A stretch of DNA of 64,000 bases from a virus, in IMG/VR virus record IMGVR_UViG_3300046463_000247, positions 1 through 64,000 of that record; one strand, 5' to 3'. Made by a program: the position numbers and the translations under genes. The notes under the pieces are model-generated. The model worked only from the letters and a program-made list of their open reading frames with translations, made no database searches and had not been told where the DNA came from. Positions 8,202 to 49,500 of the stretch are shown piece after piece. Position 1 is the stretch's first letter, and each line of letters opens with the position of its first letter.

Positions 8202-9407
8202 TCAGATTTTGACCGTCTGTCCAGTCACTTCCAGCCGTGCCTTCAGCAGGTAGCCCGGCAGTATCTGGGTCGAGCACAGTTGCAGCCACTCACCGACGAC
8301 TTCGGCCTGATGGCTCTCGTCCACGTTCTCCAGCATCGGCGCGAAGCGTAACACCCGCACGGCCTGCGCAATGATGCGGGACGGCCCGTAGGCGACCTGT
8401 GCGGTGAACCAGTCCGTCTCCAGCACGCGGATCGCCTGGCCGATCAGGAACGCGCGTGTCGCGGGCATGGTGACGCCGTGGTGGGCGAGGAACTTCTGGG
8501 CCGCACCCGCTTCCGCCTCAATGCGCCGGGCGACCATCTGGCCTTCCGCGATGCCCGGGTTGTACGCGTAGTCCGGCACTCCGGCCACGATATTCAGTTC
8601 CGGGGGCGAGTACGGACCCAGCGCGTCGCCAGGACCCAGCACGTCCGGCATGTGCACGCGGTCCATCGTCAGCAGGCTCGTCACTGACAGGCTCGGGTCG
8701 TCCTGAAGCAGCTTGACCAGCCCGTCGCAGCGCAGCAGCGCCACGGCCTTGGCCCGCACCACCGAACTCTGCACGGCGGCAGCGCTCGCGTCCACGCCGA
8801 TCTCGTCAAAGTGGCCCAGCAGGAAGTTGCCTGCGGCCATGCGCGCGGTCAGTTCCCGGATCAGGGGCATCAGGCCGGGTCCACTGAAGACGTTCGTCCT
8901 GAAGCTGGCCCGGTAGGTGTCGAGCACTTCTTCCGCCGTCATGCAGGCGAACGAGTTAATCAGCCCTTCGACGTGCGGCAGGCCCCGCGTGAACAGTTCT
9001 TCGAGGTCCGCGCCCAGGCGGCTCGGCGTATGCGCGCACAGGCAGGCGATCACGTAGCTCACGTAGCCGCGCAACTCGTCCAAGCTCTCATGGGTCTCGC
9101 GCAGCATGCACACGGCGTCGCGCGCCACCTGCTCGGCGGGGAGCGCGTAGTGCTGGGTGATGTAGCGCACCAGCGTCGGCACCAGCATGGCCGTGTAGCC
9201 GCCGTTGACGAGACCCTGGGCGTACTTGGTGGCCGTGTTCAGGTCCAGTCGTCGCAGCGAACAGATCACCGCCTGTACCGCCTTGGGCACGCTCGACGGA
9301 TTCTTCACGATGATGCTGTGCTGAACGTACGCGCCGGACTGGTGGAACCACGCGTCCTGATGTTCTTCAGAGAACGGCGGTGCGTCCATCGCTGCAACCG
9401 TAGACAT
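8202..9407 (-). CDS. Hypothetical protein, 401 aa
   Basis: Not recognised. It is a soluble, mostly alpha-helical sequence with no membrane segments or known catalytic motif; scattered Cys residues do not form a zinc cluster. The start codon overlaps the upstream stop as TAATG with GGAGG six bases before it, so it is co-translated with the 9407-9997 gene. A strong terminator follows. The pair forms its own transcription unit between the structured-RNA region and the SWIM/M15-like cassette. Confidence 0.82.
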   Translation of the reverse strand: MSTVAAMDAPPFSEEHQDAWFHQSGAYVQHSIIVKNPSSVPKAVQAVICSLRRLDLNTATKYAQGLVNGGYTAMLVPTLVRYITQHYALPAEQVARDAVCMLRETHESLDELRGYVSYVIACLCAHTPSRLGADLEELFTRGLPHVEGLINSFACMTAEEVLDTYRASFRTNVFSGPGLMPLIRELTARMAAGNFLLGHFDEIGVDASAAAVQSSVVRAKAVALLRCDGLVKLLQDDPSLSVTSLLTMDRVHMPDVLGPGDALGPYSPPELNIVAGVPDYAYNPGIAEGQMVARRIEAEAGAAQKFLAHHGVTMPATRAFLIGQAIRVLETDWFTAQVAYGPSRIIAQAVRVLRFAPMLENVDESHQAEVVGEWLQLCSTQILPGYLLKARLEVTGQTVKI

Positions 9408-9997
9408 TACGACCTCCAGAGCGGTTCGTACTTGGGGACTTCACGTTCGGTGATGCGCGGGCGGATCAGTGCGTTATACGGGCCTTCCAGGCGCGCGTAG
9501 CCGGTTTCTGGATCAAACGCATGCACCCTGTACGCGTCGCTCGTGTGCTTGTGCACGAGGTACAGTTCCCGCTGGTCGCCGCTCTTGGCGAAGGCGCTCA
9601 GGGCGTCGAGGATGGTTTCGACTTTTTCGCCGCTGGTTTCGACTTGGCCTTCGATTTGGGCTTGGACTTTCGGGCTGCTGGCTTCGACGGGGACGCCGAC
9701 TTTTTCGCTGCTGGCCTGCGTCCCCGGCTGCTGTGGGGAGCCACCATCGTCCTTGCCCAGACCAGCGGCGAGCGCGAAGGCTTCTTCCTTGGTCAGGCTC
9801 GGTGCGGCCAGTGCATCGCTGACCCCGGTGCCCGGGATGTCCTGCGAGGGTAGCTCGGCCTGCACAGGAGCCGCGCTGACGGGCTCGGGTGTGCTGGCAG
9901 GTGCCTTGGGCTCGGTGGGCTGCTCGGGAGCGGCTGCGGGCGGTGTGGCGGTTGCCGGGGCGGTCTCACCCTCGGGCCGGTGAATTTTTAATGCCAT
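9407..9997 (-). CDS. Proline/alanine-rich hypothetical protein, 196 aa
   Basis: The first 115 residues are low-complexity Pro/Ala/Glu/Thr (ATATPPAAAPEQPTEPKAPA), probably disordered. The last 80 residues look folded (QRELYLVHKHTSDAYRVHAF). The start MALKIHRPEG resembles the N-termini of RecA, the 19678 gene and others here (MALK/MGLK/MGIK). AGGAG lies eight bases before the ATG. No function is assigned. Confidence 0.78.
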   Translation of the reverse strand: MALKIHRPEGETAPATATPPAAAPEQPTEPKAPASTPEPVSAAPVQAELPSQDIPGTGVSDALAAPSLTKEEAFALAAGLGKDDGGSPQQPGTQASSEKVGVPVEASSPKVQAQIEGQVETSGEKVETILDALSAFAKSGDQRELYLVHKHTSDAYRVHAFDPETGYARLEGPYNALIRPRITEREVPKYEPLWRS

Positions 9998-10038
9998 TCT
10001 TCTCACTCCTTGAGAGGCGGATCGTCCGCATAGCACTT

Positions 10039-10065
10039 ATTTTAGCACAATCGGCGTATTGTCTA
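10039..10065 (-). promoter_or_regulatory. Sigma70-type promoter, divergent member of the GTTTGACA family
   Basis: TAGACA (10060-10065) and TAAAAT (10039-10044) with a 15-base spacer, read leftward, 41 bases before the 9997 start. The -35 box and spacing are weaker than in other family members. It sits at the downstream edge of the structured-RNA region. Confidence 0.55.
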
Positions 10066-10080
10066 ACGCACTTTGTGGGT

Positions 10081-10677
10081 TAAGACGCTCGGGCGTGACT
10101 CCGAGAGCGCAGGATTCAAACCGGCCTCGCTTGAACCGGGAGGCTTTGCCCTACTTAGGGAGCATCTAGCGGCACAGGCCCTTGCGGGTTACTGGGAGGG
10201 TAAATGGTCTCTTTTTCGGACTGGCTGGTCTGTGGCGTACCCGACATACGAGAGGATTTAGCGCCCTTGTCGCTCTATTCCCCGATCTTTCACGGGCTCT
10301 CACGGCAGTTAGTCCCTGCTGTCACCAGCAGTCACCGCGCTGGCACACCTGCATCGCCACCAGATACCCGACTTACGGGCGTCGTCTTACAGCAGCAGTC
10401 CACCGGTCATAACGCGAGGGATTCAGGGTCGAAGGAACCCCTACCCATATTCTGAAATGAACGCCGTCCGATTTCAGGCGGGCCTCTATTGGTCCCCGGA
10501 CGGCTCTACCCCTGAACTGGACTGCTGGTGTAAGACCTCAGTGAACCGGACAGCACGGGCGCGCAATGCGATGTCCCCGTGACAGGTATTGAGTGGACCC
10601 CGCTGTACGGGGCTGAACACGGGTCGTTATCTGCCACGAAAACTCCCGTCCCACTGGGTTCCTATCCGTTTCACTGA
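10081..10677 (-). ncRNA. Candidate large structured noncoding RNA
   Basis: About 650 bases lack a credible gene on either strand in a window that is otherwise almost fully coding, and the stretch is dense in inverted repeats. One 19-base arm (10384-10402) pairs with 10518-10536 at 18 of 19 positions. A second domain follows directly, with arms 10538-10550 and 10665-10677 (12 of 13 pairs). TAAGACG at 10081-10087 pairs with 10383-10389, enclosing the rest. Internal hairpins include CTGCTG-TCAC-CAGCAG (10316-10331) and CCCCG-CTGTA-CGGGG. Strand is assumed from the flanking genes. Size and ornateness recall the large phage RNAs GOLLD and ROOL, but no sequence match can be claimed. A replication origin or packaging region is the main alternative. 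Confidence 0.5.
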
Positions 10678-10681
10678 AGCC

Positions 10682-10697
10682 TTGCAATTGATTGCAA
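10682..10697 (+). repeat. 16-bp dispersed repeat, copy 5
   Basis: TTGCAATTGATTGCAA; intergenic, at the edge of the structured-RNA candidate. Confidence 0.95.
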
Positions 10698-10734
10698 ACC
10701 TCAGCCAGCGGGCCGGAGCCCGCCGCACTGCGTG

Positions 10735-11538
10735 TTACTTTACTGCCTGCTTCACTTCGATGTCCCACTCGGGGAACAGTTCGGCGATCTTCGTCAGGGC
10801 CGCTTCGAAGCCGAGCGTCTTGACCTGCTCTTCGAACGGGACTTCCGTGCCGCCCGTTGCGCCGCCGATCACGCCTGCGAGGTAACCCGCGCAGATGTTT
10901 TCGAGCGCCACGCTGTCAAATTCGGTGCCGGTCTCGGCCTTGGCCTTCGAGAGCGCCGACTTGATCGTGTTCGCCTGGTCGTTCTTCACAGCGAACTTCA
11001 GGCTCACGTTGTCGCTCGTGGTGGACGACGAGGTTTCGCCCGCTTCACCCGTGACCGTGCCCTTCAGCAGCTTCTGGAGTTCCACGACCGTCAGGCCCTC
11101 AGCCTTGGCGACCATTTCGTCCAGGTTCTCCAGCGTCAGGTGTTCGGCGAGGTCCTTGAGCTTGGTCCAGCCGAGGTGGCTGACCTTCTCCCACGGAATC
11201 TGCTTCACAATCAGGTGATCGTAGATGTCAATCAGGTAGCGCGCCTTGCGCGACTTGAAGCCAAACTTCTCTTCGACATACGCGTCGAACGATTCGAAGC
11301 CTTCGAACCACGAGTTGTCCTGGATCAGCTTGAGCACACCGCCCAGCCGCAGGTACGACACTTCGATGGTCTCGTTCAGCTTCTCAGCCTCGCCGAGAGC
11401 CTTGGGCTTCGACATGGACTGGATTTCGGCGGCAGTGTCAAAGAACAGATCGCCGGTCGCGGTCTTGCCCTTGGATTTGGCCTTGCCGACCACGACGGTC
11501 TCGGGCTTCTGTTCTTGCACTTGCTCTGCTGCGCTCAT
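10735..11538 (-). CDS. Hypothetical DNA-associated protein, 267 aa
   Basis: Residues about 55-115 read as a helical segment with a YxRLGGVLKLIQDNSWFEG start and FDAYVEEKFGFKSRKARYL. This kind of segment occurs in phage and plasmid proteins annotated as regulator-like or DUF3102-type; the match is from memory and weak. The N-terminus is Lys/Gln-rich and the C-terminus hydrophobic-acidic. The ATG has AAGGA twelve bases upstream. The gene sits alone between promoter 11605-11633 and the structured-RNA candidate, which is probably transcribed as its 3' extension. Confidence 0.72.
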   Translation of the reverse strand: MSAAEQVQEQKPETVVVGKAKSKGKTATGDLFFDTAAEIQSMSKPKALGEAEKLNETIEVSYLRLGGVLKLIQDNSWFEGFESFDAYVEEKFGFKSRKARYLIDIYDHLIVKQIPWEKVSHLGWTKLKDLAEHLTLENLDEMVAKAEGLTVVELQKLLKGTVTGEAGETSSSTTSDNVSLKFAVKNDQANTIKSALSKAKAETGTEFDSVALENICAGYLAGVIGGATGGTEVPFEEQVKTLGFEAALTKIAELFPEWDIEVKQAVK

Positions 11539-11640: not shown

Positions 11641-11656
11641 TTGCAATCAATTGCAA
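11641..11656 (-). repeat. 16-bp dispersed repeat, copy 6
   Basis: TTGCAATCAATTGCAA; seven bases upstream of a -35 box, just after a stop codon. Confidence 0.95.
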
Positions 11657-12392: not shown

Positions 12393-12884
12393 TTAGTATC
12401 CGCGAACGACTGACTTCTTCTGTTCGTCGGTCAAACTCCCGGACAGGAATGCAGCCCCCATCCGGTTTAGTGCTACTCCATCAATCACGTCGTCCGACTT
12501 GGACGTGAACCCGAACCGGGACAGCACTGCTGCCTTCATGTCGGGCTTCTTCGCCTTGCCGCTGCCGGTCAGCCACTTCTTCAGCGTGGTCGGCGGAATC
12601 TCGTACCACGGGATGCCCCGCCGCAGTAGCTCCAGCCGCACCACCGTGCCGACCTCGACCATTTCCTTCATCGTGAACTGGTTGCCCAGCCCGTATCCTT
12701 CGATGAAGGCCACAGTCGGCTCGAATTCGTCCAGTACATTCGACGCGCTGTTGCGCAGCTTCTCCACTCTCACCAGGCCCTTCACGCCCTTGTGGTGGAT
12801 CGCTTTCGTCATGAACTGTTCGCTTTCCGGGACAGTCTGTGCCATCCCGATATACGTGCTCACGTCAATTCCAAGTATTCGCAT
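12393..12884 (-). CDS. RuvC-like Holliday junction resolvase
   Basis: The sequence starts MRILGIDVSTYIG, the first RuvC strand with catalytic Asp7. It continues with an AFIEGYG strand (second acidic residue), PTTLKKWLTGSGKAKKPDMK and a C-terminal SDDVIDGVAL acidic pair. This is the RNase H-like RuvC order D-E-D-D in 163 residues, the normal family length. It would cut four-way junctions during replication, recombination or packaging. The ATG was chosen over an upstream TTG because the protein then begins at the RuvC strand. It follows the nuclease and RecA genes. Confidence 0.88.
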   Translation of the reverse strand: MRILGIDVSTYIGMAQTVPESEQFMTKAIHHKGVKGLVRVEKLRNSASNVLDEFEPTVAFIEGYGLGNQFTMKEMVEVGTVVRLELLRRGIPWYEIPPTTLKKWLTGSGKAKKPDMKAAVLSRFGFTSKSDDVIDGVALNRMGAAFLSGSLTDEQKKSVVRGY

Positions 12885-22171: not shown

Positions 22172-23389
22172 TCAACCTCCAAGTTTTTTGTAGAACGCCG
22201 CCAGCGCAGCCGCTTTCTGCTCTTCACTGGGTTTATCGCTCTCGGTGGAATCAGGGGCCTTTGGCGACTCGTTCGCCGATTTTGGCCCTATATCTGAATC
22301 ATAATTCACAATTTTAGGTTTGTCAAACACTTTCGGCACGGTATATGCGGTCTTCGCCACAGACGGTGCGGGTTGCTGCGGAACGCTTTTTGCAATCAAT
22401 TGCAACAGCGAGTCGTAATGCGACAGGATGAACCCGATCAGCGGTTGCACGGGGGCCGAGCCCAGCGCCTTGTCGGTCTTGGCCTTGTAGGCGAACGCGG
22501 ACCAGTGTTGCAGGGCGTGGTCGAGCACGGCTATCGGGTCGTGGTTCAGCCCAACCAGCTTGACGAATAGCTGGCCCATCTGCCCGATCTCTTTGCCGGT
22601 GGGCTCTTTCCAGCCGTCTTCGTACAGGACCGACATGCGCTTCTTCCACAGCAGCAGCATCCCGTTCTTGCCCTTCAGCCCGGCAGCGGGCGCGGTCGCC
22701 TTCTGCTCCTGCTGGGCGCTCAGGGCCGCGACGACGGCTGCGGAACTCGTGAGTTTCGGTTTCGGAGGCAATTCGCTTTCCCCTTTTTCAATTTTTTCCA
22801 GGTTTACTTCTTCACCGCTTTCAGGGGTTGGGTTTTCGTTTTTCGTTTTCCCTGAAAACGGGTTTCCAGTTTTTAAAAATTCCTTGGCGTCGTCAGACGC
22901 TAAAGATTTTTCTTTGTTGTTAACAGTGTCTGTACCCAGTGTGTTACGTAGTAAGGATTCAGTTGAAACACCCGAATCCAATCCGTTGTTTCGACCGGAT
23001 GGAACCTGTTGTTTGGCCGGGGTCTGGGCGTGTTCCAACTCCGTAAGACGCTCCACGTCGAGCCAGATATGGACCTTGGGCGAACCGCCATGCTTGTATC
23101 TTGCGGTCTGAATCAGCCCTTTTTGCTCCAGTTTCGGCAAAACGCGACGCAGCATCATGTCGGTGACGCGGGCTTCTTCCAGCCACTCGGGACGGGACTT
23201 GGCGAGCCACATCTTGCCGTCTCGATAGACGGTCAGCTTGCTCTTGCCGGTCTTGGGATTCGGGAGTGCCCAGAAGCAGATTCTGGAGAGCACGAGCCCT
23301 GCAACGACATCCCCATCCATCAGGTCAACGTAGGATAGGACAATGGACGGTCCAGCGCTCTGGACGTTCTTAGCGGTCGAAACTTTCAC
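22172..23389 (-). CDS. Winged-helix replication-initiation-like protein, 405 aa
   Basis: Residues about 20-100 look like a winged-helix domain of phage replication proteins (VVAGLVLSRICFWA, then EARVTDMMLRRVLPKLEQKG with a recognition helix). A Ser/Glu-rich linker and a DnaD/O-protein-like C-terminal region follow. The GTG start is supported by TAAGGAG four bases upstream. A 16-bp repeat in the C-terminal part is read LLQLIA, and a sigma70-type promoter lies inside the last 150 coding bases. It probably binds an origin and recruits the DnaB-like helicase. Confidence 0.75.
   Translation of the reverse strand: MKVSTAKNVQSAGPSIVLSYVDLMDGDVVAGLVLSRICFWALPNPKTGKSKLTVYRDGKMWLAKSRPEWLEEARVTDMMLRRVLPKLEQKGLIQTARYKHGGSPKVHIWLDVERLTELEHAQTPAKQQVPSGRNNGLDSGVSTESLLRNTLGTDTVNNKEKSLASDDAKEFLKTGNPFSGKTKNENPTPESGEEVNLEKIEKGESELPPKPKLTSSAAVVAALSAQQEQKATAPAAGLKGKNGMLLLWKKRMSVLYEDGWKEPTGKEIGQMGQLFVKLVGLNHDPIAVLDHALQHWSAFAYKAKTDKALGSAPVQPLIGFILSHYDSLLQLIAKSVPQQPAPSVAKTAYTVPKVFDKPKIVNYDSDIGPKSANESPKAPDSTESDKPSEEQKAAALAAFYKKLGG
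22298..22326 (-). promoter_or_regulatory. Promoter inside the winged-helix gene
   Basis: TTGACA (22321-22326), 17 bases, TATGAT (22298-22303), read leftward. It lies within the coding sequence about 130 bases before its stop, and would drive the 21579-22112 gene and the DnaB-like helicase. Confidence 0.72.
22390..22405 (-). repeat. 16-bp dispersed repeat, copy 11
   Basis: TTGCAATCAATTGCAA; in the winged-helix gene (LQLIA), upstream of its internal promoter. Confidence 0.95.
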
Positions 23390-46542: not shown

Positions 46543-49500
46543 TACTTGATCCCCAGCATGGTTTTCAGCGTCGGCACGTCGCGTTGCAGGTGCATGAATA
46601 CGATGTCCTTGCCGTCAGAGCCCGACATCGCCTGCGGCACGCGCTTGCGCTCGTCCACCAGCACGAAGCGGGACCCGCCATCGCCCTTGCCACCCTTCGG
46701 TGCGCCGCCGCCCGCGTCCGTGCCTTTTGCAATTGATTGCAAACCGGAAGGCATGCCACCGTCCGCGAATTTGTTGATCGAAGACGACATGCGGTTCCTG
46801 ATCGAGCCCGTCTGGCCGGAATTTAGCGCATAAAGCAGCGGCAGGTGTTCCTTCGTCGCCTTCTCGTTGACGATAAACTCGTTGTTCGCGACCATCGCCG
46901 GGATGCTGTCCGACCGGCCCGTTCCGGGTCCGCTAATCAGGCCGTGGTTGAGCCGCTTGAAGTCGTCCATGCCGAAGCCGTCCGCGAACTTGCGCACCGG
47001 CACGACGCCGCGACGACCCTGTGACGGCAGGCCACCATCGGCGAGCATCATCATCGCCATCATCGCCATCTGGCCGATCATCTGCCCCCACTGCGCGCCC
47101 TGCTTGCCGCCAATTGCCCCACCAATCGCGCCCCCGGCCATGCCGCCCATCGAGCCCGCCATACCGCCGCCACCGCCAGCCCCACCGTCCGAAAACATGC
47201 TGTTGATGCTGTCGAACATCCCGCCCAAGCTGTCCTGCGTCTGGCCCAGCACACCGCTCAGGCCGGTCGTCAGCGCGTTGCCCATCGAGTCAATCCCGAA
47301 CCCGCCGTTCGACGCGGTGTTGCCGAGGTCGGTGAACGTCGTATTCAGGCCGGTTTCGAGGCTGCTCTGGAACGTCGAGAAGCCGTCACCGCCGCCCAGC
47401 CCGAACAGCGCGGAGCCGCCCGTGGAGGTCGAGCTATCGAGGTTGCCGCCGCCCGCGTCGAAGCCGTAGTCATTGCTCGCGGTGTTCCCCATGTTGAACA
47501 GGGAGCCAAGGCCCATCGCAGCCCCGCCACGCTTGCCGAAGTTGCCCATGAGGGTGTTGACAGCCCCCATCAGTCCCGGACCGCCCTGCGTGCTGCCGTT
47601 GGTCGTGAAGGTCTGCTTGGTCGCGTCCGCCGAGCGCACCCACATCGCGTTGCTCGCGTCCTCACCCAGTTGCCTGCCGCTCTTGCCGCCCAGCCCTTCA
47701 GCCAGCTTGTCGAAGATCGAATTGCCCTCGCCGCCCGTCTGATCCACGATCCACGAGGTGATCTTCTGCGACAGGTCCTTGGCGATAACCTGGTTGATCG
47801 AGTTGACGAAGCTCAGCGCCGCGCCCCGGAAAGCCTCACCAATCGACTTCGAGTGCGACATCACGTCGTAGATGCCCTGCGTCAGCGCCTCGGAGAAGTT
47901 CGTGCGGATCGAATCGCCCAGCGTGTGGTAGGCCGACGCAAGCTGGAGAATCTGGTTCTGGTACGAAGCGGCCTTGGTGCGCGCGTCGTCGTACTCCTTC
48001 TCCATGCCCAGCGCCTTGTACTGCTCGGCCTGCTCCTGCTCAACCGCCATCAGCTTGCGGACGTTCTCGATCTCGGCGGTGATCAGTGCGTTGTCGGCGT
48101 TGGCGGCACTGATGTCCGTCAGCGCGCCGCGCGAGTTCGCGAGCGCCACCTGGGCGCGGGCGTTCTCCAGCAGGGTCGCTTGCAGGTTGCCCTGGCGCGT
48201 CGTGGCGTCGTTCAGTTGCTGCATCGCCAGCACGTCGGCCTTGCGTGCGTATTCGGCGTCCAGCAGTTCCTTCGCGCCCTTCACGCTGTCCAGCTTCTTG
48301 TGCAGGTCCTCGTACTGCTGCGCGAGCGCGGCCTGAGACCCGGCCAGCTTCTGGTCGGTCTCCTGCATCGCCTGGAACTTGACGTTGGCGACTTCCTTGT
48401 CCAGCGCTTCCTGCTCCTGCGCGCGGGCAATCGCTTCACGCGACTCGTCGGCTGCGGCCTGGGCGTTGATCTGCTTGATATGGTCGCGCTGCGCCTGAAT
48501 CTGGTTGTCGATGCCGACGCGCTCGCTGCCGGTCTTGGCCGCACCCTTGTCGATCTGGAGCGCCTTGATCTGCGCATTCGCCACCGCGACTTCCTGCGCG
48601 GCGTTCGCCTTGATCACCTCGGCACGCTTGTTGTAATACGTGTCGAGGTTCACCAGACCCTGCTGGTAGCCATACTGGTCCGCATCGAGCGCCGCCTGGT
48701 TGGCGATCTTCGTCAGCGCGGCGGTGTTCTGCGCGGCCTCCACAATCGCCTGCGCGCGAGCCTTGGCAATCGCCCGGCCTTCGTTCAGTGCGGACTCGCC
48801 GCCCGCCTTCAGTGCGGCCTGCGCTTCCTTCTCGTGCTGCTTGGCCTGCCCCATCGCGCCATTCAGCGACGACGTGATGTCCACGCCCGCCGTCTGGGCC
48901 ATCGCCTTCAGGGCCTCGCCAGCCGCCTGGAATTTCTTCAGTTCCTCTGGCGACGACACGGTGTCGGCCAGCTTCTCGAACTCCAGCAGCATCGCGTTCA
49001 GCAGCGTCTTCGACTGGGCCGAGCCGTCCTTGACGAACGCCTGCGCGGAGACAATCACGTCCGCCGCCTCGGAGAACTTCTGGGCGATGCCGGTGGTGGC
49101 CTGCGACACGTCGATGCCTGCCGCCTGCGCGGCCTCAGCGAAGTTCTGCCATGCCTTGCTGGCCTCAACCATCGCCTTGGTCTGCGCAGCGGAGCCATCC
49201 AGAATCACCTGAATCTGCTTGCGCTGGGCGTCCGACAGGTCGGCGTTCATCAGGGAGTCGCGCTGCTCCTTGATCGAAGCGTTGGTGTCCTTGATCTGCT
49301 TCTGGAGGTCAGCCTGTTGCTGCTTGAGCGTCAGCACGTCCGACGCCGCCGACGAGCGCGCCTGCGGGGTGGCCTTCTCGTCGTTGGCGATCAGGTTCTT
49401 GTCGCTGATCTGGCGCGCGAGGTCCAGGTTCTGCTTCTGCTGGGCGGCGAGGTCGGTGTACTTCTGCTTCAGCGTGTCAATCGCCTTCTGCACGTCGCCC

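Follow-up and report, generated by a model that had tools for sequence, protein, structure and literature searches.

The gene-free gap and its neighbors

The window analyzed here covers positions 1-64,000 of a virus record of 98,045 bp (IMG/VR IMGVR_UViG_3300046463_000247), and the genes in it lie on the minus strand. The phage is kin of the Stenotrophomonas phages DLP_5, Summit, and DLP_3 (Delepquintavirus). The largest gene-free gap within the window spans 10037-10734 and is arranged with its neighbors as follows, in the direction of the genes:

10735-11538, minus strand: upstream neighbor gene, PHROG 17202, role not known; syntenic anchor for the locus comparison
10682-10697, no strand: copy of the near-palindrome TTGCAAT(TG/CA)ATTGCAA, adjoining the 5' end of domain A
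10532-10683, minus strand: domain A, a stem-clamped RNA candidate (5' arm 10683-10662, 3' arm 10553-10532, interior ~108 nt)
10384-10536, minus strand: domain B, a stem-clamped RNA candidate (arms 10536-10518 and 10402-10384, interior 115 nt)
10037-10383, minus strand: rest of the gap, non-coding, structure at chance level; may be the leader of the next gene or a spacer
9407-9997, minus strand: downstream neighbor gene, role not known; likely ATG at 9997 with GGAG ahead of it

The gap is non-coding. Its codon log-odds score of 5.3 equals the level of shuffled sequence (5.4), far below the flanking genes (144 and 42), which bears out the gene-free stretch claimed in an earlier reading of this DNA (the original prediction). 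For the upstream gene, Pfam, AlphaFold, and Foldseek gave an all-helical prediction without a match; for the downstream gene, family searches gave no match and a neighbor-protein search of IMG/VR no relatives. No minus-strand promoter or terminator was recognized within the gap, and no tRNA genes were found in the window phage. Elsewhere in the window, two minus-strand tiles of 150 nt fold strongly (22801-22950 with z -4.2 and 12601-12750 with z -3.5), both inside predicted genes.

The near-palindrome is a dispersed repeat with ~50 copies per 98 kb, within and between genes; its longer form is expected 0.07 times in the window. The exact form GCAAT(TG/CA)ATTGC occurs 28 times in the window (e.g., 10682-10697, 11641-11656, and 46727-46742), 9 times in stretch L041, and 13 times in stretch L042, and several relatives likewise bear dispersed copies (3-7 per 12-17 kb). 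In DLP_5, DLP_3, and Summit, the motif TTGCAATCAATTGCA also stands directly ahead of their own domain A (DLP_A), the one just before tRNA-Ser. Possibly, these repeats are binding sites for a phage protein with a role in the nucleoid, in partition, or in regulation.

Two stem-clamped domains

Structure within the gap is confined to 10384-10683, that is, to ~300 of 650 nt. The closing stem of domain A extends over 22 positions including G-U pairs on the minus strand (stem score 42.4), and that of domain B pairs at 18 of 19 positions (stem score 40). Among 1000 dinucleotide shuffles of the gap, none matched the best and none the second-best of these scores. The originally proposed stem with 18 of 19 pairs (10384-10402/10518-10536) is confirmed. 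A second stem had been placed within 10538-10677 with 12 of 13 pairs; it is present, yet longer on the minus strand than described (10662-10683/10532-10553). The folding energy of domain A corresponds to a z of about -3.3 to -3.4 on the minus strand; domain B reaches an MFE of -69.3 (z -4.25, minus strand), and an equally good folding was found in 0 of 200 shuffles. Domain A has three A-C mismatches on the plus strand that turn into G-U pairs in the minus-strand reading, which lengthens the stem; the reverse occurs once. Its structure hence fits an RNA read in the direction of the genes. For domain B, pairing does not tell the strands apart. The outer stems of both domains overlap and compete for ~5 nt (10532-10536).

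The rest of the gap presents a different picture. Segment 10040-10381 has a z of -0.2 on the minus strand and -0.1 on the plus strand, and all 150-nt sliding windows across it lie between -0.6 and +1. The long-distance outer pairing proposed between 10081-10087 and 10383-10389 is therefore unsupported and stands at chance level; the many hairpins ascribed to this region likewise fold as shuffled sequence does. A lone T-arm-like string, GGTTTGAATCC, lies here at 10112-10122. A decayed tRNA at 10081-10168 was considered and rejected, as relaxed ARAGORN calls of this kind also arise in 126 of 300 shuffles.

Database searches returned no relative of the element. With Rfam, neither the whole window at the gathering threshold nor the gap region at E <= 10 matched a family—apart from a chance match to mraW in the latter (14.8 bits, E 5.1)—and no tRNA match was obtained for the region; in the relatives, Rfam yielded tRNAs but no other family. 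By blastn, the whole element and each domain had no DNA relative in 50,697 phage records, nor did the whole element in 72,556 plasmids. A search of IMG/VR via the neighbor proteins led only to L040, which derives from a near-identical phage but is a fragment and ends short of the gap. No second copy of the element exists in the 98-kb genome, and a comparison of the window domains with the DLP domains by sequence gave chance-level matches only.

The same locus in related phages

For comparison, the upstream gene served as anchor (alignment A1) and gave 79 IMG/VR loci in addition to the DLP phages. Downstream of the anchor gene, DLP_5, DLP_3, and Summit bear five tRNAs along with four long-stem domains that lack annotation, measure 91-133 nt, and have stems of 18-24 bp. 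Sequence-unrelated domains of 80-200 nt, often back to back, occupy gene-free gaps downstream of the anchor gene in further relatives (L055, L059, L063, L066, L069, L070, L071, and L083), with three in L069, two in L070 (in an 800-nt gap), and two in L083. Some relatives carry 1-5 tRNAs at the locus, and most of the ~50 uncultivated relatives show no long-stem domain there. The richest array is that of L071:6763-7983, where three long-stem domains (108, 138, and 202 nt) and a tRNA-Cys share a gene-free gap of 1.2 kb. In one IMG/VR phage contig, ARAGORN calls a tmRNA gene downstream of the anchor gene (L057:3269-3603).

An even count over 53 loci, among them a few near relatives of each other, took in stems with a score of at least 40 and a span of 75-260. 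It yielded 25 sense stems downstream of the anchor gene versus 4 upstream and 2.0 in shuffles, and 13 antisense stems downstream versus 1 upstream and 0 in shuffles. Each of the 13 antisense stems is at the same time a sense stem, whereas another 12 pair in the sense direction only—the signature of a transcript that contains G-U pairs. In individual domains, the antisense fold can equal the sense fold in stability. Overlap with a predicted gene is absent in 18 of 21 inspected domains; the stems in L088, L095, and L163 are likely coding or of low confidence and were excluded as evidence. The last stem often lies 10-50 nt ahead of the next predicted gene (L059, L063, L066, L069, L070, L071, and L083).

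From this comparison, a class can be proposed that is defined by a 17-26 bp stem, an interior of 40-150 nt, and a position in sense direction within a gene-free gap downstream of the PHROG 17202 gene; the window fits this description. The locus in the window exemplifies an undescribed architecture that recurs at a phage tRNA/noncoding RNA locus. The new class that the original prediction offered as an option suits the data better than GOLLD or ROOL, not as one RNA but as an array of separate stem-clamped domains of 115-155 nt. The elements of DLP_5, DLP_3, and Summit resemble those of the window in locus, in the kind of stem, and in the TTGCAAT motif ahead of the domain on the tRNA-Ser side; they differ in that the sequences of domains A and B are unrelated to theirs and in that the DLP phages bear four domains plus five tRNAs.

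Compensatory changes and a conserved core

Compensatory stem changes are seen in the DLP phages, whereas domains A and B of the window are without a homologue in the collections. Between DLP_3 and DLP_5, the stem of domain DLP_0 shows the double changes G-C to A-U and G-C to C-G and one repaired mismatch around an identical interior; a pair-count control on three sequences only, and hence weak, reached the score in 50 of 500 shuffles. In the DLP_C stem, two double changes and a single G-U change set Summit apart from DLP_5, and another pair is lost. Between L055 and L075, two A-U pairs have become G-U. For DLP_A, three DLP sequences (again a weak control) gave no covariation signal.

The DLP_C interior is wholly different in the two phages, being a tRNA in Summit (30.1 bits, Rfam) and another fold in DLP_5. 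This has the appearance of a cargo exchange within a conserved clamp stem (L035:9099-9229 in Summit versus L034:9210-9342 in DLP_5).

The interior of DLP_0 recurs, without annotation, within or next to tRNA clusters in Straboviridae and in phages outside that family, namely Serratia phage 4S, Enterobacter phage CIP9, Pseudomonas phage Astolliot, Salmonella phage As2, and Aeromonas phage AS-zj, as well as in 32 IMG/VR contigs. In total, 39 phage sequences bear this core (L034:7908-8023 in DLP_5, L127:1501-1551 in CIP9, L124, L125, L126, L128, and the IMG/VR loci L129-L160). It comprises ~50 nt with the signature CRGCUCACCGUUGA...AAGAAUACGG, also written CRGCUCACCGUUGA..AAGAAUACGGACAAGUCGGC, and is laid out as [X]GCUAUC[Y]GCUCACCGUUGA-(hairpin)-AAGAAUACGGACAAGUCGGC[Y']CGAC[X']. 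Of the 39 sequences, 38 have standard pairs at both X-X' (five pair types) and Y-Y' (four pair types); the 39th falls outside the pattern. Mostly, the core is enclosed by closing stems, which vary in sequence. It is absent from Rfam 15 at E <= 0.5, and its model (R1) found no match in the window phage (window, L041, and L042), nor is the core present in the T4 tRNA region. At the level of sequence comparison, the conserved core of DLP_0 with its covarying pairs marks one domain of the locus, at the least, as a real RNA under wide selection. By appearance, the core looks like a ribozyme- or aptamer-like family.

Comparison with known phage RNAs

The nearest likeness is with RNA C and RNA D of phage T4 (species 1 and 2 stable RNAs), encoded by rnaC and rnaD back to back beside the T4 tRNAs. 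No role is known for these RNAs (PMC3014915), which are expressed late and were detected by Northern blot (PMC9697503). As in the window, they are a back-to-back noncoding pair on the strand of the flanking genes, at a phage locus that holds tRNAs in some relatives. Their lengths are 139 and 119 nt compared with ~152 and ~153 nt in the window. By contrast, no sequence similarity is seen, the predicted T4 folds lack a closing stem of 19-22 bp, and a neighboring tRNA array is present for T4 RNA C/D and in the DLP phages but not in the window phage.

GOLLD and ROOL, in whose likeness the whole region had been proposed as a candidate single RNA of ~650 nt, are phage noncoding RNAs as well, the former large, often near tRNAs and sometimes with tRNAs inside, the latter of about this length and near tRNA islands. 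Neither Rfam covariance model matched, even at E <= 10 on the region in cmscan; hence, neither family is found here. In addition, the window holds short separate domains instead of the one ~800-nt RNA of GOLLD, and it shows neither the extended structure across the region expected for ROOL nor the contiguous structured RNA of about 600-800 nt that would be expected of either. One large ornate RNA would agree with the length, the gene-free gap, and the tRNAs at the locus in relatives—tRNAs being often present at GOLLD and ROOL loci (PMC12286853)—but with half of the region unstructured and the outer pairing at chance, we consider it very improbable.

What the domains might do

We put the probability that domains A and B form a structured RNA locus at roughly 0.85. 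Most likely, the long stems are clamps for processing and stabilization. The locus would then encode two small candidate noncoding RNAs, presumably transcribed from the minus strand alongside early or replication genes, each with a folded interior of ~110 nt clamped by a stem of 18-22 bp. RNase III has its natural substrate in stems of 18-25 bp, and it is through comparable clamp stems that rRNA precursors are set free in bacteria. Host RNase III might cut the double-stranded stems of a polycistronic transcript and leave stable RNAs of ~110-150 nt, a mechanism to which we give slightly less than an even chance. The freed RNAs would act in trans during infection. Against this reading stand the failure to recognize a minus-strand promoter or terminator in the gap and the lack of tRNA genes in the window phage.

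Foremost among the alternatives is a function of the stems in cis only. In phage T7, RNase III sites are long imperfect stems between the genes of a polycistronic transcript, formed by hairpins with small loops. Stems A and B might serve in the same manner as RNase III sites or mRNA stabilizers between genes, their interiors being functionless. The short distance from the last stem to the next gene in several relatives would suit such a role, as would the keeping of stems without conservation of the domain sequences between phages. The long stems are indeed alike, but the window interiors measure ~110 nt and are folded, and interiors in general (~40-150 nt) are mostly structured. Moreover, many phages share the DLP_0 interior in strictly conserved form, and domain B ends about 380 nt short of the next gene. 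We hence regard a solely cis function as rather unlikely. The full turnover of sequence at constant architecture might also reflect an arms race, with the RNAs as fast-changing decoys or inhibitors of a host nuclease or sensor. Neutral interiors would turn over likewise, and such an anti-defense role appears improbable.

Two further explanations take the locus for a remnant. Tandem inverted repeats of 19-22 bp flanking about 110 nt could be MITE-like mobile remnants with terminal inverted repeats and not functional RNAs; yet neither the 98-kb genome nor the phage and plasmid collections hold another copy, and a sense-strand G-U bias as well as double changes that keep pairing in relatives argue against it, making this origin exceedingly improbable. 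A tRNA array that decayed after tRNA loss would agree with the 1-5 tRNAs found here in some relatives and for the T-arm-like string, but the relaxed tRNA calls stand at chance, no tRNA match emerged at E <= 10, and long stems are not the remains of tRNAs; it is scarcely probable.

Returning to the stem-clamped RNAs, their recurrence might tentatively be taken for a general phage strategy, in which a fast-evolving long stem holds exchangeable RNA cargo that is processed from transcripts and acts on the host. With similar reserve, the cargo may be thought of as unique folds, tRNAs, or a core that is deeply conserved and resembles a ribozyme or an RNA that binds a ligand. If this modular reading is true, the window contributes two new cargo types.

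Phage tRNA regions harbor RNAs without known function—T4 RNA C and RNA D, for decades, and GOLLD and ROOL. The stem-clamped architecture, which compensatory changes maintain although its cargo is swapped (a tRNA in Summit, the conserved core in DLP_0), gives a handle on RNAs that are missed by sequence search and Rfam. With DLP_5, DLP_3, and Summit in culture, the question of how such RNAs are produced is open to direct testing.
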